Source: a virus
DNA length: 36,346 nucleotides
IMG/VR virus record: IMGVR_UViG_3300030107_006625
Span: 1 to 36,346 of that record
Direction: 5' to 3' (one strand)
Under the pieces are notes generated by a model that did not search any database, had not been told where the DNA came from, and worked only from the letters and a program-made list of their open reading frames with translations. The translations under genes and the position numbers were made by a program. Below are positions 1,861-32,743 of this stretch, piece by piece. Within the stretch, counting starts at the first letter, position 1; each line of letters begins with the position of its first letter.

Positions 1861-3169
1861 CTTCTGTTTCCTCGTATTCGCCTGTTTCCATAGCTTGTAA
1901 GTGCTTATCTTCCATAGCTTTTCTGTTTTTTTCTATTATTTTCTCAGCTTGTGCCTTAGATAAGTCTTTATTATACTCCATTAATAGGTCTACTTCATCT
2001 AACATATGATGTTTTAGTCTATGTTCGTCTAATAATATCTGATCTTGTACTGTTTTTGGATATTCAGGTTCGTTAAAGTCTAACATTAGCTTTTCTGGAA
2101 GGTTTATATTGTTATAAGCAGCAATTTCTTTCTCAATATAGTATAATTCATGCTCATACATCCTCCAAAGCTCTATATCGTCTTGATAATCTTCAAATCT
2201 TTCCAAATCTTTGATTTTTAGTGCAATTCCTGATGGAGTTTCGCCACCATCTTGTGCAAATTGAACATATAAGTGGTTATTTTGTGCTACTAAGTCCACT
2301 TGGAACTTAATATTCTCAATAACTGATTCAATATTGCCTGCTGGTGACACAATTCCAAAACTTGCACCTTCAGGTAGGTCAATTATTTGATCTGAGCCTG
2401 CTCTTTCGATTCTTTTATCAGAATCTACTCCTGTCATAAATGGCTGACCAAACATTTGGAATCTTAACCCTAATTGCATCTCTGTCATAGCAATATTCAC
2501 TTGTTCATTACAATCTACGATGTCATTAGCACCATCTACAAAAAATTCGTCTATTTGTTCCTCTCTATGAGTAAATAAGAATGGTAAAACACCATATCCA
2601 TGCTCATATTCGTGAATTATATTGCCTGTTTCGTCATAATGAACATAAATTGACTCATCCCAGTAAGCCCATTCGCATTTTTCTGTATTATTTATGTCTT
2701 CAGGTTGCATTAATAGTGGATACATGATAGCAGAAGGTGTAAATGGGTCTTTTAAATGCACATCAAAGTAATAAACAGGTCTATAATCAAAAAATGGCAT
2801 CCCATTTACTTCTTTATATATAATTTGTGTAGCAACAGTTCCCATTAAACGAGTCATTCTTTCTACATGCTTCATTCTAGCATCTTTTTTAATAGTTAGT
2901 AGATCATATTCGTTACTTACATTACGATTAGCACCTACTGTGTAGATTCTGCTCATTTTATTAATAAATCTTCTAGTGAAGTTTGCATTATAGCAGGGGA
3001 TTTCTCTAAAAGCATCAGCAGCAAAATAACTTTCTATATAGCTGTGTGTTCCATTTCCTCCATAATAGTCAAGCATTTTACGAACCCATTCTCTTCTATT
3101 TTTTTGGTTCATTAGTTTAGAATCAGATACTGATTGCTTTATAATCTCTTCTACTGTCATGTTTGTCAT
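1850..3169 (-). CDS. Portal protein
   Basis: 439 residues, the usual length of SPP1 gp6-like portals, which form the dodecameric vertex through which DNA is packaged. Supporting features are the position right after the large terminase with an ATGA overlap (3166-3169), a helical acidic C-terminus, and a central QNNHLYVQFAQDGGETPSGIALK stretch, of the sort found where portals have their stem and crown helices. No catalytic motif is expected. The C-terminal Glu-rich tail (EDKHLQAMETGEYEETEDAN) overlaps the start of the next gene. The family call rests on context and general likeness. Confidence 0.8.
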   Translation of the reverse strand: MTNMTVEEIIKQSVSDSKLMNQKNRREWVRKMLDYYGGNGTHSYIESYFAADAFREIPCYNANFTRRFINKMSRIYTVGANRNVSNEYDLLTIKKDARMKHVERMTRLMGTVATQIIYKEVNGMPFFDYRPVYYFDVHLKDPFTPSAIMYPLLMQPEDINNTEKCEWAYWDESIYVHYDETGNIIHEYEHGYGVLPFLFTHREEQIDEFFVDGANDIVDCNEQVNIAMTEMQLGLRFQMFGQPFMTGVDSDKRIERAGSDQIIDLPEGASFGIVSPAGNIESVIENIKFQVDLVAQNNHLYVQFAQDGGETPSGIALKIKDLERFEDYQDDIELWRMYEHELYYIEKEIAAYNNINLPEKLMLDFNEPEYPKTVQDQILLDEHRLKHHMLDEVDLLMEYNKDLSKAQAEKIIEKNRKAMEDKHLQAMETGEYEETEDAN

Positions 3170-4479
3170 CTTGTCCTCACTTTAAATTCTCTTTGTTTAA
3201 TTGGAAACTTATTTATAAAAAAATATCTTATCATGTCGCAACCATGGTCGTGAAAACCATCTTTTACAGGCTCAGGTTTTAAATCTGCTCCTTCTTTTAC
3301 TTCTGGATAACGATAATTCTCTAAATCTGTTATTATTCCTGTACATTTCTCATTTATATGAAAAAATCTTTCGCCTTGGGCATTTTCTATAAAACCTCTT
3401 ACATGAGATATACCTGATGCTATACTTCTTGAGGCTTTATCTCTTTTAGTGTGAACATTTATACCATGTTTCTTAAAAATTTCTATATCTCCTAGTCCTG
3501 ATTGCCCTTGTGCCTGCATACCAGCAGGGTCACCAAAATATTTAACGACATTATACCTTTTTGCCTTAATTTTTAAGGCTAACTCATCTGTTTTGACATT
3601 TGTCTTGTGTATTATTTCATCAATCATGTTTATATGATAAAAGCCACCAACTCTATATACTTGAAACCAACCAACTGCTGGCATTCTGTACCCAAAGTCT
3701 ATAGAACAATAGGTAGGTAAGTTTGGATTATACTTATAGTTGCCTACATCTAATGTTCTTTCTATTGGATAAACTTTACCAGCAAATGAAGTAAATGCAG
3801 CACCATATTCCTGTTCATATACTTCTTTAGCCATATTTCTTTTTCTTTCAAGAAGAAATTGGTCTTGTTTACCTTCAGGGAAGGCATAATGGTTATCCCA
3901 AGAGGGAGCTTGGTGAGATTCCCATAATTCATCGCTTTGCCCAAGGAGATACAAGTCATAAATCCAATTAAACCCTTCAGGTGTTGTGATAAAAATAGCC
4001 TTCCCTTTTCGGTCAGACAAAGTGGGAGATAAATACATATCCCATATTTTACTTTTAACTTTGGCAGCCTCATCAATTATTAACAGATCTAATCCCTCTC
4101 CAACCAGAGAGTCTGGATTATCTGCTGATTTAGCTTCAACTACTGTGTCCCATTTAAAATGAATAAATCTGTCTTTCTCTGAAGCCCTCTTTATATCATT
4201 CGGATGCCCAACTACCATCGTTTTCCATATCTCCCTGAACATAAGGTCTGCTTTATCATAAGATAAGCCAACCAGCCATATCCTTTTATTGGGTTGAGAG
4301 GCATAAAATGTTGCCTCCATAGCAGATGCAGTTGTTTTACCAAACCTTCTCCCACAAACCATGACAAAAAACCTTGCTGTATCTTTCGTAGGAAAATGCA
4401 TTTTATTTTGCCCTAGATGTGGTTTGTAGTCCATGTAATTAAACCACTTTTTCTTATAATCTGTAAGTGAATTATCCAA
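3166..4479 (-). CDS. terL: Terminase large subunit
   Basis: 437 residues: the ATPase and nuclease that packages the genome. Walker A is GRRFGKTT (residues 43-50), Walker B with catalytic Glu is LLIIDE (132-137), and the coupling motif ITTP is at 164-167. The RNase H-like nuclease acids are D261 (SIDFG), D317 (FGDP) and D415 near the C-terminus. All motor and nuclease residues look intact. The open frame begins with TTG at 4479 with only a weak upstream AGG; the first in-frame ATG is codon 16, so the exact start is open. The gene heads a leftward operon (terL, portal, completion) that diverges from the scaffold-capsid operon. Confidence 0.95.
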   Translation of the reverse strand: MDNSLTDYKKKWFNYMDYKPHLGQNKMHFPTKDTARFFVMVCGRRFGKTTASAMEATFYASQPNKRIWLVGLSYDKADLMFREIWKTMVVGHPNDIKRASEKDRFIHFKWDTVVEAKSADNPDSLVGEGLDLLIIDEAAKVKSKIWDMYLSPTLSDRKGKAIFITTPEGFNWIYDLYLLGQSDELWESHQAPSWDNHYAFPEGKQDQFLLERKRNMAKEVYEQEYGAAFTSFAGKVYPIERTLDVGNYKYNPNLPTYCSIDFGYRMPAVGWFQVYRVGGFYHINMIDEIIHKTNVKTDELALKIKAKRYNVVKYFGDPAGMQAQGQSGLGDIEIFKKHGINVHTKRDKASRSIASGISHVRGFIENAQGERFFHINEKCTGIITDLENYRYPEVKEGADLKPEPVKDGFHDHGCDMIRYFFINKFPIKQREFKVRTR

Positions 4480-8825: not shown

Positions 8826-9083
8826 ATGGCAAAGTATCAAGGTAAATCAGTTAGATTGAACAAGCCATCTCGTATTACAAAAGGACAACCAGGATATGGT
8901 CGTAAAAAATTTAAAGTATTTGTTAAAAGTGGAAGTAAGATAAAGAAGGTTATGTTTGGTGATCCTAACATGACTATTAAAAAATCTAGCCCTGCTAGAA
9001 GAAAGTCTTTTAGAGCTAGGCATAAATGTGCAACAGCTAAAGATAAAACAACAGCAAGATATTGGTCTTGCAAAAAATGGTAA
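8826..9083 (+). CDS. Conserved small basic protein with C-terminal Cys pair
   Basis: 85 residues, strongly basic. The C-terminal part ARRKSFRARHKC...TARYWSCKKW is highly characteristic and, as I recall, conserved in many marine podo- and siphoviruses without a proven function. Two Cys and one His (RARHKC and WSC) could bind a metal. The GDPN turn at about residue 46 is also typical. It sits between the basic peptide and the putative outer-membrane protein, and its stop codon overlaps the ribosome site of the next gene. Confidence 0.75.
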   Translation: MAKYQGKSVRLNKPSRITKGQPGYGRKKFKVFVKSGSKIKKVMFGDPNMTIKKSSPARRKSFRARHKCATAKDKTTARYWSCKKW

Positions 9084-9096
9084 GGAGATAAATGTA

Positions 9097-10167
9097 ATGT
9101 TTGGTGGAAGATTTAAAAATTATATTGCTTATGTGGTTACGACTTGCAGTTTGGTCTTTGGTGGCTTCTTTGATTATTCGACTCTTTATCTTAGTGGCAC
9201 AATGGGCACACCCTATGTAAAAGGCAATCAAGTATTAAAAAATGATTATAATTACACTATAGGTTTAAGAAAGATTGCATTATTCCCATACCAATCAAGA
9301 TCAAGATTTTACAAAGGGAATGAATCATCATTAGCAGATAAAGCAGTAATAGGTGCAGTAAATGGTTGGGAATATCTATTTAAGTATTCAGATGTTAGAA
9401 ATAGAAATAATGAGTTCAAAGATACTGAAGTATGGCTTAAATGGTCAAATGATAATTGTGTAGTTAAAAGCAAGTATGTTAATAAAGAGAGTAGAGATTT
9501 AGAATTTGCAGAGTTAGATATTAGGTATAGAAAACACTTTTGGTTTATTGACTTTACAACAGGTCTAACTGTTAAGGGACACCCTGTATATGGTCATCCT
9601 GCAATAGAAGATTATGAAGGTTTTTGGTGGGATTTAGCTTATGAATATGGCTATGAAGATAACTTAGTGCCTGTAACAGATTTAAATCAGAATGGAGAGA
9701 TTGACAATTATTACATATTTATTGAAACTGATCCTATCACAGAAGAAGGGTATTGGGAAATGTATTATGAGGAAGCTGATTTCTTTTGGACAGATGCTGA
9801 CTCCAATGCAGTTGCATATTCTGATGCAGAGTTTTACGAATATCATCTCCCAAATATAGTTGCACAATATAATGAAGATAATGAAATTAAAGAATACCAA
9901 GCAGAGCTGTATCAAGTTATAGGGCTAGATATATTGATGGGTTCAAGAGAAACTAGATTCTACTCACATATTTGGCTTAATGTGTTTCCACAATCTTATG
10001 GTTTAACAGATAAATCATACAAAGGAAAAGAAAGTCAGTATGATATAGGAATGTTGTTTGGTATGAGTCTAACAGACAATATAGGTCTGTTTTTAGAAGG
10101 AACAAAGGCAAGTTTTTATGGTAAAAATGAAGAGTATATCTCTACAGGAGTTAATTGGAGGTTCTAA
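9097..10167 (+). CDS. Putative outer-membrane beta-barrel protein
   Basis: 356 residues from the ATG at 9097, which has a TAAGGAG site ten bases upstream; an ATG 69 bases earlier inside the previous gene is open but unlikely. The N-terminus is a short basic stretch followed by a hydrophobic segment (about residues 8-23), like a signal peptide. The body is rich in Tyr, Trp and Phe with alternating strands, and the protein ends in a strand closing with Asn-Trp-Arg-Phe; a terminal Phe is the usual BamA recognition signal of Gram-negative barrels. One loop, DLNQNGEID (about residue 202), resembles an EF-hand but lacks the last acidic residue. Possible roles are receptor masking or outer-membrane disruption at lysis. 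Confidence 0.55.
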   Translation: MFGGRFKNYIAYVVTTCSLVFGGFFDYSTLYLSGTMGTPYVKGNQVLKNDYNYTIGLRKIALFPYQSRSRFYKGNESSLADKAVIGAVNGWEYLFKYSDVRNRNNEFKDTEVWLKWSNDNCVVKSKYVNKESRDLEFAELDIRYRKHFWFIDFTTGLTVKGHPVYGHPAIEDYEGFWWDLAYEYGYEDNLVPVTDLNQNGEIDNYYIFIETDPITEEGYWEMYYEEADFFWTDADSNAVAYSDAEFYEYHLPNIVAQYNEDNEIKEYQAELYQVIGLDILMGSRETRFYSHIWLNVFPQSYGLTDKSYKGKESQYDIGMLFGMSLTDNIGLFLEGTKASFYGKNEEYISTGVNWRF

Positions 10168-17587: not shown

Positions 17588-19889
17588 ATTTAAAGCTGAC
17601 TCCAAGTCACTAGAACAAGCTTTAAAAAACTTAAAAGCAGGCACTGATCAGTTAAAGCAAGCTACTGTTGTATTAACAAAATCGCAGAAGAAAAATAACC
17701 AAAACCAAGAACTAGCAAGTGCAACAATAAAACAAAATATAATAGAATTTAATAGACTTAAAGGAAGAATAGATTTAAGTTCTGGCAGTTTAAAAAGCCT
17801 TGGTCTTAACATGACAGTAGTAACTAAAGCATCACAAGGCAACAGTAAAGCATTAGCTTTAATAACTAAAGCATATAATAGGCAAAAAAGAGATATAAAA
17901 GAAGTTTTAGATGTAAATCAAAAAAAATTAGCTCAAGACAAAAAAGTTGTAAGTGCTGAAAAGAAAAAAGAAAATGCTGTTAAAAAATCTACTAAAGCTA
18001 TTACTAAGGCAAAAGCTGCTCAAGATAAACTTACAAAAGCTACAAAAAGAGGAACTAAAAATTTAAGAATACAAACTGGTGCTTTTGCTACACTTCGTTC
18101 TAATTTACTTTTATACTCTTTTGGTGTTGGGTTAGCACAGGCTGCTTTAATTTCTTTTGTTGAAAAATCATCTAAATTAGAAGATTTAGAAAGAGGTTTT
18201 AGAGGTTTAGTAAGAAGTATTGGAGGTAGTGCTGATTCATTAGATAAGCTAAAGAAAGCAACTGACAATACTGTATCAAGTGCAGATTTATTAAGAGAAG
18301 CTAATAATGCTATGATGCTTGGTGTTGTTAAAAGTGATGAGGAAATGGCTCAATTATTCGACACAGCACAAAGGTTAGGTCAAGCATTAGGTGTTGATAC
18401 TAAAGATGCTATAAATTCTATAGTAACTGGTATGGGAAGGCAATCTAAGTTGATGCTTGATAACTTGGGAATTGTTATCAAAGCTGATGATGCTTATGAA
18501 AGATATGCTCAAAAAATTAAAGTTTCAAAGGATGAATTAACTGATCTTCAGAAAAAAGAAGCATTTAATCAAGAAGTTTTAAGAGTTTCAAAAAATATGG
18601 TAGAACAATTAGGGATAGAAACTTTTAGCACACAACAAAAATTACAAATGATGAGGGTTGCAACTGAAGATATATCAGTTGAAATGGGAAAAGTTTTGAC
18701 TCCTGTAGTAAATGCTTTAACTATACTTTTGGTTAAACTTTCTGAAAACTTAGATGCTGAAGCAATTAGAAAATATGGAACTGCTGTTATAGGAGTTGGA
18801 ACAGCTTATGTTATAATGAGTAAGTCAACAAAAAAAGCAATAAAAGCAAGTATTGCATTTACAAAAAGTAATAAAAAAATGCTTGCAGTAATGTTAGCTG
18901 TTGGGGCAGTTGTAGAGATCCTAGACAGACAATTTGATTTTTTTGAATTAGATGAAATAGAGAATGATTTAAATAATTTAAATACTGAGTTTGAAAATTC
19001 AGAAGATATATTTAAAGAAACTGCAAATGCCTTAAATGAACTAAATAGAGAAACTAAACTTAATATATCTCAACTAAAATTAAAGAATGCAGAAGATGGT
19101 ATCTCTGGAACTATAGGAGAAAAACTTCAAATACTTGCTATAAAAAAAGCTGCTGCTGAAAAAATGATAAACGAAGAATTGGGAAATCAAATAGAAGCAC
19201 AAGCACAATTAAACGATATAAATACAGAAATACATAATACTGAAATGGAAAGACATCAGCAAAAAATAGCTAATGCTGTAGAAATGGCTAATGCACTTGC
19301 TAATGTTATGCAAACAAGTGCTGACCTTGAAATGCAACAATCAAAACGAGCTCAAAAAGAAGCAATTGATGCTACTAATAGCATAAGAAATGAAAGAATA
19401 AGACAGATTGAAATTAAAAAAATCAACGACAAATTTGCTGCTGAACAAGAAAAGATTAATGAAAAAAGCAAAAGAGCAAAGAGAACTCAAACTGTTATAA
19501 ATACTGCTGTTGGTATAATGGAGGTATGGGCAGATAAAAGTGCTGGTTTGTTTACTAAAATAGCTATGTCTGCTTTAGTGGCTGCAGCAGGAGCACAACA
19601 AATTAAAACAATTGATGCTCAAAAATACCAATATGGTGGATTAGTTGGTGGTAGAAGACATTCTCAAGGTGGAACTATGATTGAAGCAGAGCAAGGTGAA
19701 TTTGTTATGAGCAGAGAAGCTACTGAAGCTGTAGGTATAGAAAACTTAAATAGAATGAATACTGGTTTAGGTGGTGGAGGTGGAGCTAGTATTGTTATAA
19801 ATAATCCTATTTTAGGTAAAGATACTATAGAAGATGAGATAGTTCCACAAATAAAAGAAGCACTTAGAAGAGGAGGTTCTATTGCTTAA
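17562..19889 (+). CDS. Tail tape measure protein
   Basis: 775 residues. The N-terminal half is Lys/Ala/Gln-rich helical and coiled-coil. Hydrophobic segments lie at about 181-200 (LYSFGVGLAQAALISF) and 439-455 (KMLAVMLAVGAVVEIL). The C-terminus has the tape-measure hallmark GGLVGGRRHSQGGTMIEAEQ, followed by EFVMSREA and a Gly-rich run. It sets tail length and carries the DNA-ejection segments. At about 1.5 angstrom per residue it would specify a tail near 110-120 nm, a rule-of-thumb figure. It overlaps the chaperone by 26 bases and the next gene by 8. Confidence 0.93.
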   Translation: MAKPELTIKFKADSKSLEQALKNLKAGTDQLKQATVVLTKSQKKNNQNQELASATIKQNIIEFNRLKGRIDLSSGSLKSLGLNMTVVTKASQGNSKALALITKAYNRQKRDIKEVLDVNQKKLAQDKKVVSAEKKKENAVKKSTKAITKAKAAQDKLTKATKRGTKNLRIQTGAFATLRSNLLLYSFGVGLAQAALISFVEKSSKLEDLERGFRGLVRSIGGSADSLDKLKKATDNTVSSADLLREANNAMMLGVVKSDEEMAQLFDTAQRLGQALGVDTKDAINSIVTGMGRQSKLMLDNLGIVIKADDAYERYAQKIKVSKDELTDLQKKEAFNQEVLRVSKNMVEQLGIETFSTQQKLQMMRVATEDISVEMGKVLTPVVNALTILLVKLSENLDAEAIRKYGTAVIGVGTAYVIMSKSTKKAIKASIAFTKSNKKMLAVMLAVGAVVEILDRQFDFFELDEIENDLNNLNTEFENSEDIFKETANALNELNRETKLNISQLKLKNAEDGISGTIGEKLQILAIKKAAAEKMINEELGNQIEAQAQLNDINTEIHNTEMERHQQKIANAVEMANALANVMQTSADLEMQQSKRAQKEAIDATNSIRNERIRQIEIKKINDKFAAEQEKINEKSKRAKRTQTVINTAVGIMEVWADKSAGLFTKIAMSALVAAAGAQQIKTIDAQKYQYGGLVGGRRHSQGGTMIEAEQGEFVMSREATEAVGIENLNRMNTGLGGGGGASIVINNPILGKDTIEDEIVPQIKEALRRGGSIA

Positions 19890-22800
19890 TTTAGACAATT
19901 ATCCTGAATTTAAATCAGATATACAAGGTAATGCTTTCAACTTACATCCTGTTGTTAAGATAAATACAAATCCTCCTATTTATTTATCTCAAAATGAAGA
20001 AGTTATTGATGATGGTGGAGAACCTAAAAACTTTCAAGCATTAAATCTTAAAATACCATCTATTAAAGAATCTATTGACATTGAAAATAGAAACTTTAAA
20101 ATAAATAACATTACTTTAACAATTTCAAATATAGACTACATAGATAACAATGGTAGTAAAACATTGTTTAGTGATTTATTTTCTACAAGAAACTTTTTAA
20201 ATATTAGTGTTGAAATATATTGGAAATCTCAATCATGTAAAACATTAGAACAATGCTTACCTGTATATACAGCTATTATCAAGAGAGTTTCTCACGATTA
20301 TAATAATGTTAAAATTATATTAGAAGACCTTACAGAATCTGTAATGCATAGAAAAGTTCCTATAGGGATATTAAATTCTGAGAATGCATTAAGAGATGAA
20401 GATGTAAATAAAACAATACCAATGGTTTATGGAGAAGTTGATAAAGCTCCATGTGTTTTGTATAAAGATTTAGACCAAGATTCAGAAACTTTAAAAAAAA
20501 TATACACTCTTGCAGATAGATATGAAGTCCCACTTCATAGAGGTGTTGTTGATGTTAATGATGGTTATAATCCTAATGCAGCAGGAACTAACACAGGAAG
20601 CACAGATCTTTTATATGTTTACTCAGGCTCTTACTTAAAAGTTATGGAAAATATTGCCGAACATGATAATTTAGATCCTAGCATTAGCCTTGAAGCACCA
20701 TCTTTTCCACAGCTTCAAGTTGAAACAGAAAATACTGAAGATAATGGTACAAGAACATTTTTAAGATCAACATTTCAAAGTCTTACTACTACAAATACTA
20801 TTTCTTTGGGTATAATGCAGGTTCTTTTCAATAGGACAGCAACTACATTTAGTGTTTTAAACCATCAACAACCATGGTCTTATGAAGAATATGGGAACCC
20901 TAACACTCCTAATGTAGCAATGAATTGGGCAGAGGAGTCTGTAGGAATACCACAAAATGCCATAGATAATAGTTGGACTACATACTCAGAAGTTCCTAGT
21001 AAAAGTTTATCAAGCTATGAATCTTTAATGACAACAGAAGATGGTTGGTTTTCTTTATCAAGTTTTTACAATGGAAGGAATATATCTACAAGGTATAACG
21101 ACAACGAAACTTTTTCTCTTAATGCATTTTCAGGAGATTGGGAAGAATCTTCTATGGAGATATCTAGCAATAATAAATATTGGCACATACATAGAAATAT
21201 TAATAGAGATTTAGGGCAAAGTTTAGCAGGAAAGGTAGAGTTTATATGCTTGCCTGATGCAAAAAAACTTTATGATTTGTTTTATGAGTGGTATAATAAT
21301 TTAGCTTCAGAAGAAAATCCAAGTGGGCATAATTTAAGAACATGGCAATCAAATGCAGTTAAAAATATTAATTCAAATAATAGGTTTAAAGAAAATCATT
21401 TCAATCATATGTGGGGAACAGCACTTGACTTTCAATCTACAGAATATGATGAATCTGGCTTACCTCCATTAGGTTTTTTGCATTCAATGACAGATTTTTC
21501 AAATCCTTCAGATGAAGGTTTAAATTATCCATATGATTCTATGGTTAATGATACAGCACCTGGCTTTAATGCTTCTGATGCTAATCTTCCAAATTATTTA
21601 TATAAAATAGCCAAAGATTTACAAATTAATAACTCTGAAAATCTTGAATATTTAACTACCAATCCTAATGCATGGATTTTATTTTCAAAAGATTTTGATG
21701 GAAATAGCATATCAGGCTATAATAAGCAAAATTTACCACATTACAATGAAACTGGAAATCTTAAAGCAATACATATTGACTTTTGGGATTTGTTAAGTTA
21801 CCACGAAATATCATATGAAGATTTACCTAGATATAGAGTAACAGGATTAATAGATAGAAATATGTATTATAATGGAAATCCTTATGATATAAATCATTTT
21901 TATGACAATCTTAGTGTTGAGTGGAATGGCATATCTCAAAATTTTTGGGTAAACACAGGTCAAAGATCAGGTTTTTCTTACCCTTGGAATGCACAAAGAG
22001 AGCAATCAGAAATTAACTCTATTGGTTACAATGGCACAGATGACTCTGTAGATTGGAATAATTTTTTCTCTGATAGCCAATGGCATATTCACTTTTTAGA
22101 AGATGTTACACTTGAAGGCTCAGGTATAACTATTAAAAAAGGAACAATGATGCCAGGTTGCATGGGAATGCCTATATTCAAATCTTTAGAAGATTACGAT
22201 GGAAGTCCTATTGATTATCAAAACTCAAATGGAATAAGAACAATTGCTAAAAATAAAATACCTGGTAATATTAACTTTAATTTAGGAGAGCAAGACACAG
22301 CATGGATAATAAATACAGGAGCTGAAACAGGCTCAGGTTTATCTGCTGATATTGTTGGAGATTTTTCTGATGCATTTCAAAGTTTTCAAGCAGAAGGAGA
22401 AGCTAAAGGTCTTGGTCTTTTAATGACTTTAAATGATTCTTCAGTTGATAATGCGATAGAGGAATCAGGCTTTGCTTATTTTTATGGGAAAGTTGATGCT
22501 CATATATATTGGACAGGTCTTGGAGGAGGTGGTATTGATGCAAGTTACCAATACCTCCAAATGAGGCAATATGCTGTAGATATCCCTACATCAGAAGAGC
22601 AAGCAGAAGGTGCAGAGATAGAGGCTTTTCCACTAGGTACTTTATCTGAGATTGTAGGTTTAGATGTTCTTGGTACTTGGGGAGTAGAAGGGCATCCTTT
22701 TTATGATCAATTTGTTAATAATAATTATAAAACCATGTACGATTCTCAACTTCAAAGCCTAGGAGATGACATATTCGAGCAATTCCCATTACATTCTTCT

Positions 22801-24603
22801 ATATGGGATATCCCTAACAGATTTAATGCAGCTATGGTAGGTTTTCATTTTAGATTTTTAAATTATGAAGGTGCTGCTTTGTTAAAAACTAGAGTTCATA
22901 ACATGGGAATGAAACACATATTTGAAATAGATGACATATTTGCAAAAGACTATTATTTAGAAACTAAAGGCAGGATTTGTGGAAGCTCTGATTCTCCTGA
23001 ATTAGAATCTCCTCCTACTGCTGTTATGAAAGATATTATAGAAACAGAATTAAATCAAAATATTAATGTCCATCCTTCTTATTTAGAGGTAGATTCTAAT
23101 TTAAGTTATGGTAATTGGAGTATAGCTTTTTCACAAACAGAACAAATTGAGGCTAAAAAAATAATACAAGAAATAGCTAAAAGCACACCTGTAATACCAT
23201 TGTTTAGATCTAATTTAAGTTTAGGCATGGCTCTTATAAAAAACAACTACTCTGATTCAGATATTTCTAGTGGAGGAATGATAAAAACTTCTGATATAAT
23301 AAGCTCTTCTTTAGACAGAACTAAAATTGAAAATGTAAAAACTATGGTTTCTGTTAAACATTCTAAAGATTATGCAGAAGATAAACATCTTCAAACATCT
23401 TATGTTAGTGCTTATGATTTTTATGGTAATGGTGATAGAGGATATCCTAATGGCTATAAAAAATCTTTTTATGGCTTAAATGCAAACACTCCAGGAGATT
23501 CTGTGTTAGAGTTTGTAAGCGATTATACGAGATATAAACAGGGATATACAGGAGATAGTTACTTTGGAAATTCAACACCTGAAAAATTAAGAGATTTTTT
23601 ATTAGCATATAATTGTAACCAACACAATATTATTAAATTTAAAACTACAATTAAGTATGCATATTTAGAAGTTACAGATATAATTCGTTTTGATTCATTA
23701 ATTAATGGAATGAAATGTTTTGGCGAAGATTACACTCAATCAGGTGTTATAAGAAATGGTCAAGAAATATATCCATATTTTATGATAACAAATATAACAA
23801 AAGATATTAATTCTATTAATATTGAATGCATTCAGATGCATAATTTAGAAAGAAACAATGAAGTTTTAATTCAAGGAAATGGTGATTTTAATCTATCAGG
23901 AGCAGCAGATGAGCAAGATATCCATGAATTGCAGAGTTATATTCTTAACCCTTACCAATACATTACAGAAGGACAGAAATATGCTTGTGATTTAAACAAT
24001 GATGGTAAATTAGATGAATCTGATTTAAGCATTTTAAGAGAATCGTTGCAAGAACCTTTAAATATTTCTACTATTGACGATCTTCCAGAGTATACAGTAT
24101 CTATAAGAGAAAATGGTCAAATATGGGTAAATATTCCTGAAACAATTTCAACTGTTGAGATAACTTGTGCCCCTCAATTATTGGGTCATAATGGATATTC
24201 TGAAATTTGGGCTCATAGTATAGATGTTGATGCAGAAGACTGGACACAGACAGACCCAATTCAAGAATTTCCTATTACAAATGGAGATTTTAATGGTGCA
24301 TCTTTTTTTACTCCTCATGCAGCAAATTATATGTATGTATTAGGACTAGAAAACTATGAACAACTTATTGGAACATTATTAACTCTACATACTCCCTCTC
24401 CATTATCTTATAATTACATACCAGTAGATCCAGAAATTGAAGAAATTGTTATTATTTGTCCTATAGTTTTAAAATTTATAAAACCTGATGGTACTGCTTT
24501 AAGATATCATATAGATCCATATGCAGGTTCAACCACTTACAAATTGTACTATGAAAGTTTTTTAGTTTGGCAACCTTTTTACTGGGAGCCAACCTTACCT
24601 TAA
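19882..24603 (+). CDS. Giant tail-tip / baseplate hub protein with dockerin-like domain
   Basis: 1573 residues. The TTG start at 19882 is well placed after AGGAGG (19871-19876) and overlaps the tape measure stop. The N-terminal 200 residues are beta-rich, like distal tail or hub proteins. A long middle follows, rich in Asn, Tyr, Trp and Ser and poorly recognisable, as in receptor-binding tips. Residues about 1334-1392 hold two calcium-loop motifs typical of type I dockerins: DFNLSGAADEQD (1335-1346) and DLNNDGKLDESD (1370-1381). The second matches DxNxDGxxxxxD exactly; the first has Ser at the fifth place. A final beta domain (about 1400-1573) follows. It is the largest gene here and probably contacts the host. 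Confidence 0.75.
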   Translation: MLNLDNYPEFKSDIQGNAFNLHPVVKINTNPPIYLSQNEEVIDDGGEPKNFQALNLKIPSIKESIDIENRNFKINNITLTISNIDYIDNNGSKTLFSDLFSTRNFLNISVEIYWKSQSCKTLEQCLPVYTAIIKRVSHDYNNVKIILEDLTESVMHRKVPIGILNSENALRDEDVNKTIPMVYGEVDKAPCVLYKDLDQDSETLKKIYTLADRYEVPLHRGVVDVNDGYNPNAAGTNTGSTDLLYVYSGSYLKVMENIAEHDNLDPSISLEAPSFPQLQVETENTEDNGTRTFLRSTFQSLTTTNTISLGIMQVLFNRTATTFSVLNHQQPWSYEEYGNPNTPNVAMNWAEESVGIPQNAIDNSWTTYSEVPSKSLSSYESLMTTEDGWFSLSSFYNGRNISTRYNDNETFSLNAFSGDWEESSMEISSNNKYWHIHRNINRDLGQSLAGKVEFICLPDAKKLYDLFYEWYNNLASEENPSGHNLRTWQSNAVKNINSNNRFKENHFNHMWGTALDFQSTEYDESGLPPLGFLHSMTDFSNPSDEGLNYPYDSMVNDTAPGFNASDANLPNYLYKIAKDLQINNSENLEYLTTNPNAWILFSKDFDGNSISGYNKQNLPHYNETGNLKAIHIDFWDLLSYHEISYEDLPRYRVTGLIDRNMYYNGNPYDINHFYDNLSVEWNGISQNFWVNTGQRSGFSYPWNAQREQSEINSIGYNGTDDSVDWNNFFSDSQWHIHFLEDVTLEGSGITIKKGTMMPGCMGMPIFKSLEDYDGSPIDYQNSNGIRTIAKNKIPGNINFNLGEQDTAWIINTGAETGSGLSADIVGDFSDAFQSFQAEGEAKGLGLLMTLNDSSVDNAIEESGFAYFYGKVDAHIYWTGLGGGGIDASYQYLQMRQYAVDIPTSEEQAEGAEIEAFPLGTLSEIVGLDVLGTWGVEGHPFYDQFVNNNYKTMYDSQLQSLGDDIFEQFPLHSSIWDIPNRFNAAMVGFHFRFLNYEGAALLKTRVHNMGMKHIFEIDDIFAKDYYLETKGRICGSSDSPELESPPTAVMKDIIETELNQNINVHPSYLEVDSNLSYGNWSIAFSQTEQIEAKKIIQEIAKSTPVIPLFRSNLSLGMALIKNNYSDSDISSGGMIKTSDIISSSLDRTKIENVKTMVSVKHSKDYAEDKHLQTSYVSAYDFYGNGDRGYPNGYKKSFYGLNANTPGDSVLEFVSDYTRYKQGYTGDSYFGNSTPEKLRDFLLAYNCNQHNIIKFKTTIKYAYLEVTDIIRFDSLINGMKCFGEDYTQSGVIRNGQEIYPYFMITNITKDINSINIECIQMHNLERNNEVLIQGNGDFNLSGAADEQDIHELQSYILNPYQYITEGQKYACDLNNDGKLDESDLSILRESLQEPLNISTIDDLPEYTVSIRENGQIWVNIPETISTVEITCAPQLLGHNGYSEIWAHSIDVDAEDWTQTDPIQEFPITNGDFNGASFFTPHAANYMYVLGLENYEQLIGTLLTLHTPSPLSYNYIPVDPEIEEIVIICPIVLKFIKPDGTALRYHIDPYAGSTTYKLYYESFLVWQPFYWEPTLP

Positions 24604-31729: not shown

Positions 31730-32047
31730 TTATTTTACTTTATTATACACTTTTTTCATGTGCCTTATAACTGCTTTTAACTCTTTCAGTTCTCGTTTTG
31801 CAATCTCGCATCCATCTTCTATTCCTTCTGCATGAGACCAACCACTTCCAATGCGATACTTATCTGCAATTTCTTGAACTTCTTGTATGGCTTCTTTATA
31901 AGATTTTCTAATCCACCAATATGGATCATCAGAAGCATCCACATCCCACATTTGCATATGTAATTCACTTGAAAATGGGGCATCTTTTAATAAAATACCT
32001 GTTGGACTTTCCAAGTATTTCTTTCTTAAATCATCTCTTGATTCCAT
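31730..32047 (-). CDS. First gene of the nucleic-acid operon, unknown
   Basis: 105 residues, with a Trp-rich centre (MWDVDASDDPYWWIRKSYKEA) and a basic helical C-terminus. No family recognised. AAGGAAT precedes the start. It is the first leftward gene after the gene-free control stretch, so it should be among the earliest made from a promoter there. Confidence 0.65.
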   Translation of the reverse strand: MESRDDLRKKYLESPTGILLKDAPFSSELHMQMWDVDASDDPYWWIRKSYKEAIQEVQEIADKYRIGSGWSHAEGIEDGCEIAKRELKELKAVIRHMKKVYNKVK

Positions 32048-32079
32048 GATCTATTCCTTTATTTTATTTTTCAAAAAGC

Positions 32080-32098
32080 ACAACAACTCTTTTGTTGT
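32080..32098 (-). terminator. Hairpin with T-run in the operon leader, possible attenuator
   Basis: On the minus strand ACAACAA pairs with TTGTTGT around AAGAG, followed by GCTTTTTG. This is a short but regular intrinsic-terminator layout lying 33 bases before the first gene of the operon. It could stop read-through from the orphan block or attenuate the operon. Confidence 0.45.
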
Positions 32099-32216
32099 AT
32101 ATTATAATTTACAACATTTGCAAATAATATGCAAGAACTTTTTCTCGACGAGAATATAAAAAAATAAATTCTGACAAATTAAAAAACATAGTTGCAAATA
32201 ATTATTTTATTGATAT

Positions 32217-32231
32217 TGAGACTCAATCTCA
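32217..32231. promoter_or_regulatory. TGAGA-N5-TCTCA dyad in the mid-genome control stretch
   Basis: TGAGACTCAATCTCA, identical to the first site of both edge arrays, with one extra paired base on each side (T/A). It lies 170 bases upstream of the leftward operon and about 120 bases upstream of the structured-RNA start, so it could control either direction. Confidence 0.65.
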
Positions 32232-32325
32232 AAATTGATAAATTGTAAATTTGTTTTGTTTTATTATAAAATTTTCTTAATTTATAACCTTGACTTTTTT
32301 GGTTAAATACTTTTTCGGTCAAGAA

Positions 32326-32331
32326 TATAAT
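32326..32331 (+). promoter_or_regulatory. -10 box of the candidate structured RNA
   Basis: A perfect TATAAT on the plus strand. Transcription from about 32338 would begin at the first hairpin. No -35 at 17 bases is seen (TTAAAT lies there). A TTGAC/GTCAA dyad (32290-32294 and 32318-32322) overlaps the usual -35 region and may be an activator site. Confidence 0.45.
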
Positions 32332-32336
32332 ATAAA

Positions 32337-32575
32337 GTTGCACAGAAAAAGGGGATAATCTTAGTATATGCAACAGGTAGATTAAACAGATAAAATACCT
32401 TCTAAGGCTGACACAAAGTTCGGTAAAATAGTTATCCATATTATAAGTTTTGTGGCTTATAATTGCACTAAACTCGGCTCTATGAGGGGATAGTATTGCA
32501 GATCTAACTCCTGGATTATAACTCCAGGGGATAGATTCTGCACATACAGATATAAAGGGATAGTATAATATAGTA
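32337..32575 (+). ncRNA. Candidate structured non-coding RNA
   Basis: Four hairpins follow a TATAAT box. H1: GTTGCA (32337-32342) with TGCAAC (32369-32374). H2: AGGTA (32375-32379) with TACCT (32396-32400). H3: ATTATAAG (32440-32447) with CTTATAAT (32456-32463). H4: GCAGATCTA (32498-32506) with TAGATTCTGC (32532-32541), enclosing CTCCTGGA/TCCAGGGG around loop TTATAAC. GGGATA occurs four times (three as GGGGATA: 32351, 32486, 32527; one as GGGATA at 32557). The 3' end is not clear; no U-run follows H4. The strand is inferred from the -10 box, as hairpins alone do not tell it. I recognise no known RNA family. Confidence 0.55.
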
Positions 32576-32743
32576 TTAATCATTAATAATCTTAATAAAC
32601 TTATAACTATCTTCTTTATAATTCTCTGGTAATTCTATTAATTGCATCATTGCTTTAATTTGTTCATCTGAATATTTAGGTGAAAATGGATATTCAAGTT
32701 CTACTCTTATAATTGCTGTCTTTACAAATTTAGCTTTTTTCAT
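32576..32743 (-). CDS. Small orphan protein
   Basis: 55 residues starting MKKAKFVKTAIIRVELEYPF, with an acidic-aromatic second half. GGGGAAGAA precedes the ATG, which overlaps the stop of the upstream membrane peptide (ATGA). It is the last gene of the AT-rich orphan block. No family recognised. Confidence 0.6.
   Translation of the reverse strand: MKKAKFVKTAIIRVELEYPFSPKYSDEQIKAMMQLIELPENYKEDSYKFIKIIND

Follow-up and report, generated by a model that had tools for sequence, protein, structure and literature searches.

Comparison of related phages indicates that the region around positions 32337-32575 of the window belongs to a real, conserved structured RNA, whose sequence has diverged almost beyond recognition while the fold was kept. 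The window, i.e., the whole stretch of DNA analysed, is IMG/VR virus record IMGVR_UViG_3300030107_006625 of 36,346 bases, from an uncultivated marine phage. We consider it somewhat better than an even bet (roughly 0.55) that the element is a stand-alone noncoding RNA gene on the plus strand, forming a pseudoknotted scaffold with two identical docking sites for one partner and acting in trans. Nothing corresponding to the RNA family, its fold or its matched repeats was found, and in this sense they are new; as a structured phage RNA in general, the element has precedents in GOLLD and ROOL. The fold was kept through deep divergence in a large marine phage group, and therefore the RNA must serve a need; its modest size of ~280 nt suits structural work.

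The stretch 32337-32575 is located between two leftward genes, 31730-32047 and 32576-32743. Relatives were entered through the ParB-like protein of the adjoining operon, which led to contig L002, where the syntenic intergenic region was 73% identical to the window. Further members were collected from IMG/VR with DNA patterns derived from conserved loops, and the RNA was found in at least 35 viral contigs, all fragments of related phages. The members were assigned to three sequence types with one architecture: type I (L012-L014, L026/L116/L136, L097, L100-L102, L002/L009/L134, L105, L130, L139/L140), type II (L040, L041, L046, L051, L057, L059, L141, L143, L144, L148, L172, L174) and type III (L058, L071, L152, L153, L155, L159, L160, L162), with L177 and L178 near type III and L147 intermediate in type. 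Thirteen of the 23 contigs of the TerL family (fragments of 19-40 kb) matched at E < 1e-4, a count which includes L179 (G004), whose match at E 2e-5 was unsupported by a simple pattern look at its sequence. Several pattern matches were discarded. Those in L010/L011 were chance matches inside a GC-rich coding gene, the pattern CCGAAGTAGATAACGCC gave members only in L152, L153, L155, L156, L159, L160, L162 and L163 while its other matches were without the remaining features, and most matches from another loop-pattern search were chance coding sequence. The TerL of the window (3166-4479, minus strand) belongs to a family of about 200 relatives in IMG/VR, which judging from these sequences is a large uncultivated phage group. 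No isolate phage was a close relative by DNA, the best TerL matches being ~31% identical, and no match pointing to a host was obtained when bacterial and archaeal genomes were searched with TerL.

The sequence-only reading of this DNA had described four hairpins, H1 to H4. All four were present, showed paired changes in relatives, and correspond to P2, P4, P6 and P8, respectively, among the following features:

32278..32283, plus strand: position equivalent to a -10 box; TAATTT and weak in the window, TATATT/TATAAT in most relatives.
About 32288-32566, plus strand: the structured RNA, with P1 at its 5' side and the second repeat, R2, at its 3' side, delimited by conservation among relatives.
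32289-32294 / 32318-32323, plus strand: hairpin P1, CTTGAC/GTCAAG; 16 different arm pairs in 16 lineages, 7/7 pairs changed on both sides.
Within 32289-32323, plus strand: P1 loop, U6 and then GG[UUAAAUA]C (UUAAAUA at 32303-32309), resembling a T-loop.
32310-32316 / 32345-32351, plus strand: loop contact PK1, CTTTTTC of the P1 loop with GAAAAAG of the P2 loop; covaries.
32326..32331, plus strand: TATAAT, located in the linker between P1 and P2; relatives differ in the sequence and the length of this linker.
32337-32342 / 32369-32374, plus strand: P2, GTTGCA/TGCAAC; 17 different arm pairs in 17 lineages.
32360-32364 / 32402-32406, plus strand: P3, CTTAG/CTAAG, an H-type pseudoknot with P2; covaries.
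32375-32379 / 32396-32400, plus strand: P4, AGGTA/TACCT; clear in type I, weaker elsewhere.
32389-32393 / 32432-32436, plus strand: PK2, GATAA of the P4 loop with TTATC; 18 different arm pairs in 18 lineages.
32408..32423, plus strand: P5, CTGA/TCGG, whose loop joins PK3; from alignments, with GTGT/ACAC and CGAG/CTCG in relatives.
32412-32417 / 32449-32454, plus strand: kissing loops PK3, CACAAA of the P5 loop with TTTGTG of the P6 loop; 15 different arm pairs in 15 lineages.
32440-32447 / 32456-32463, plus strand: P6, ATTATAAG/CTTATAAT; closing pair C-G in L026, T-A in L002.
32463..32496, plus strand: repeat unit 1 (Q1-x-R1), TTGCACTAAACTCGGCTCTATGAGGGGATAGTAT.
32486..32496, plus strand: R1, GGGGATAGTAT; apart from R2, the only exact copy of the core in the window.
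32498-32504 / 32534-32541, plus strand: P8, GCAGATC/GATTCTGC, a two-part stem with apex.
32508-32515 / 32523-32530, plus strand: P8 apex, CTCCTGGA/TCCAGGGG; paired change in L012.
32538..32566, plus strand: repeat unit 2 (Q2-x-R2), CTGCACATACAGATATAAAGGGATAGTAT; Q2 doubles as the 3' arm of P8.
32556..32566, plus strand: R2, AGGGATAGTAT.

Predicted folding of 32337-32575 was stronger than that of all 200 shuffles (z -3.4), in agreement with the earlier statement that the density of stems exceeds chance. The opposite strand of 32282-32570 folded about equally well (z -3.7 vs -3.4); energy alone is therefore silent on the strand, and comparative evidence was needed. Covariance modelling on homologues, which had been suggested as the check, was carried out with a model of the 5' part only (P1, P2, P4), built from L139, L101 and L002 with the window excluded. 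It recovered the window at 32287-32407 with 110.6 bits (E 5e-21), and compensatory changes were seen in the stems. In the model-based alignment of 11 members 97.2% of the pairing cells could pair, against 75.2% with the letters of the 3' side shuffled (0/500), and both sides had changed in 18 of the 29 pairs. The covariation score was 0.64 and fell to at most 0.13 when the partner was shifted by 1-3 columns. PK1 and P3, being absent from the model, constitute an independent test, and scored 0.36 against 0.12 when shuffled (0/500). Arms of P1, P2, P3, PK2, PK3 and P6 matched at 0.99-1.00 within a lineage and at 0.41-0.53 between lineages, in a comparison where arms were picked by eye, a procedure biased towards matches within the own lineage; the test on fixed columns is free of this bias and covers P1 to P4 plus PK1, in type I only. 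Such replacements of both arms were seen in PK1 (CTCTTTC/GAAAGAG, CTTTTTG/CAAAAAG, CTTTTGG/CCAAAAG, CTTTTAG/CTAAAAG), in P3 (CCTGG/CCAGG, CTGAG/CTCAG, TTCTC/GAGAA, ACGAC/GTCGT and others) and in PK2 (e.g., GACAG/CTGTC, GGCAT/ATGCC, GATCC/GGATC, TAGAT/ATCTA), and the P8 apex of the 96% identical L012 had changed as a pair to CCTTCAA/TTGGGGG. By these comparisons the fold and its conservation can be taken as demonstrated, with P4 and the P8 apex appearing less well supported across types than the other helices. The P1 loop motif UUNRAUA was kept in the majority of members of types I and II, and U6 adjoining PK1 might form base triples.

The same data leave practically no probability for chance hairpins in AT-rich DNA or for a minus-strand gene. 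An antisense ORF of 134 codons (32179-32583, minus strand) does span the whole RNA, and comparable antisense frames of 105-144 codons were open in several relatives, but the covariation refutes this explanation and a coding signal is absent. The frame was absent or broken in L002, L102, L026 and L139; where it was open, differences showed no preference for any of the three codon positions and indels of 1-2 bases occurred. The description of the stretch as gene-free holds in that respect. A stop-poor antisense frame lying over an RNA could mislead annotation.

The model alignment contained 8 G-U cells and 1 A-C cell, as expected for the plus strand. Several relatives have promoter-like boxes shortly before P1 (TTGACA/TTGCAN, a spacer of 17/18 bases, TATATT; in L041 and L057 TTGACA-18-TATATT), while the window's own -35/-10 upstream of P1 was weak and no better than in shuffles. 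The G-U pairs and the upstream boxes of the relatives point to the plus strand for the RNA. A plus-strand RNA opposite to the neighbouring genes had been proposed from the window alone, and covariation over multiple lineages, together with a position and orientation kept in relatives, bears this out. The 5' limit was set near 32288, since relatives carry helix P1, with its strongly conserved U-rich loop, ahead of H1/P2, which places the start upstream of the TATAAT. That box, read earlier as the promoter, does exist at 32326-32331, but it falls in the variable P1-P2 linker and is one of five in 32000-32700, and it is therefore not taken as the promoter of the RNA. The start assigned to H1 near 32338 had to be given up, because the RNA starts with P1, some 50 bases further upstream, and in relatives the promoter-like boxes precede P1. 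Likewise, the element does not end with the last stem at 32541 but continues to ~32566, an approximate 3' limit, as no terminator was recognised for the RNA.

The RNA lies 5-9 kb beyond TerL. Behind its 5' side is an operon with HTH, ParB-like, Rad52/annealing protein and SSB-like genes, from which it points away, and at its 3' end most members have a small convergent gene; in the window, R2 is near the stop codon of 32576-32743. An RNA ending close to the convergent stop codon, as in many members, would suit a purely cis-acting element, i.e., a terminator, a leader or an antisense RNA of the leftward neighbour genes. We find this very unlikely, as the neighbour genes change between members while the fold persists, and the G-U pairs favour the strand opposite to the genes.

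The 3' part of the RNA is characterised by a unit of 29-37 bases present twice, before and after the P8 apex. The R cores within it comprise 8-13 bases, and in the window the identical core GGGATAGTAT occurs in R1 and R2. The cores agree inside each phage and differ from phage to phage: those of other lineages were AGGTTATAATAT, AGGATATAATA, GGATATTATA, GGGTTATAA, AAGGTTGTA and AGGGTTGTA, and further lineage-specific cores were TAGGTAAAG, TAGAGCGA, TAGAGCAA, AAGAGGAA, AAGGGTAAT and AAGGGGATAGATA. R1 was closest to its own R2 in 14/14 lineages, ties included, a result reached by 0/100000 permutations, and we regard it as demonstrated that R1 and R2 change in concert. No third exact copy of the core was found in the 36,346 bases of the window, whereas L139, L057 and L147 had one stray extra match each; a role of R as promoter or operator throughout the genome was rejected for lack of a further exact copy in the window. 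No complement of R recurred inside the RNA across lineages, and no partner of R was found. It is possible that the first bases of unit 1 pair with the 5' arm of P8 in an early hairpin, later displaced by P8. In L102 (3729-4006, minus strand) the 3' part and R were nearly identical to window positions 32476-32566, while its 5' core was unlike that of the window in P1, P2, P3, PK2 and PK3, a pattern possibly reflecting mosaic exchange inside the RNA.

In the reading that we prefer, we infer transcription as a gene of its own, on the plus strand and driven by a promoter immediately preceding P1, as well as a partner and an outcome for infection. The 5' part, from 32288 to ~32463, would form a compact core held by the P2/P3 H-type pseudoknot and by PK1, PK2 and PK3, and the 3' part would display the two phage-specific copies R1 and R2 flanking hairpin P8. 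The core would thereby serve as a scaffold, and the matched R sites would dock one partner that binds twice, either a dimeric protein or a nucleic acid target that is itself repeated, and this partner would evolve along with each phage. Matched sites docking a co-evolving partner would mean that the RNA acts in trans. Two matched sites could equally work at the DNA level. A narrower reading is that R1 and R2 are a recognition tag, the RNA working only when both agree, read by the partner, by a nucleic acid target or by template-switching; we hold this as tentative, with the odds leaning against it, and if true it would be a new principle for phage noncoding RNA. Matched yet drifting R1 and R2 are an unusual signal and offer a direct handle on function.

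Other explanations of the two copies were weighed. ColE1 RNA II is a structured transcript adjoining replication functions, and the RNA might in a similar way be a replication-start element, whose transcript primes or licenses replication with R1 and R2 as iterons for a phage initiator. Its place just upstream of the operon with the HTH, ParB-like, annealing and SSB-like genes, and the two phage-specific copies of R, would fit. We nevertheless regard it as doubtful: there are just two R copies, both within the RNA region, the gap to the 5' neighbour ranges from 28 to 333 bases among members and thus holds no conserved AT-rich unwinding region, and no initiator was identified. ColE1 RNA II has no homology to the window RNA, an origin role in the window being only conjectural, and we know of no counterpart to the matched R repeats in it. 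A ribozyme cutting or joining at R1 and R2 would be in line with the compact multi-pseudoknot core and with two identical sites around a hairpin, but it is quite improbable, as the lack of an R complement recurring in the RNA across lineages leaves no internal guide and no Rfam ribozyme family was matched. The DRT2 defence ncRNA is of similar length, and its template jumping needs matched short repeats. Matched short repeats at both ends of a segment would likewise suit an RNA that a reverse transcriptase uses as its template, R1 and R2 being the jump sites. This is highly improbable, since RVT_1 (PF00078) was absent from all 19 records of RNA carriers (the window and 18 further ones), with control genomes positive, and a host enzyme would be needed. 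Two partly matched units, like those found here some 40 bases apart, are also known from CRISPR repeat pairs and RNA anti-CRISPRs (Racr). Here, however, the units are only partly alike, as the R cores match and the middle of the unit differs, and the stretch between them is conserved and takes part in pairing with unit 2, whereas a CRISPR array has near-identical repeats and variable spacers.

Rfam at the gathering threshold, with 6S RNA, riboswitches and ribozymes included, gave no match in the window, L012 or L101; at a permissive E-value only irrelevant weak matches were obtained for the window and nothing relevant for L041 and L152. The RNA thus matches no known family, as had been stated before. 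The nearest known kind is GOLLD and ROOL. GOLLD is a large, strongly structured phage or prophage RNA with several covarying tertiary contacts and one marine-metagenome member, ROOL is a phage RNA of 659 nt with multiple pseudoknots and kissing loops, and kissing loops help to hold GOLLD, ROOL and OLE oligomers together (PMC12286853). The window RNA differs from them in that there was no match to the Rfam models of GOLLD, ROOL or OLE, a length below about 600 nt (GOLLD often exceeds 800 nt), and no tRNA gene in the 36 kb window by ARAGORN, tRNA proximity being frequent, not universal, in GOLLD and ROOL. An RNA-only assembly, in which PK1, PK2 or PK3 link copies into a ring or cage, would agree with the phage origin and the many covarying loop contacts, and covariation cannot separate intramolecular from intermolecular contacts. 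We consider it unlikely, as ROOL and GOLLD are more than twice as long as the window RNA, and there was no Rfam match and no tRNA.

Two further proteins of the window deserve mention. The 1573-aa tail-region protein (19882-24603, plus strand) contains a dockerin type I domain at residues 1334-1389 (Pfam E 7e-6), which is unusual for a phage. A 379-aa protein of the structural operon (9028-10167, plus strand) gave no Pfam match and, from its sequence, resembles an outer-membrane barrel, with a relative in L007.
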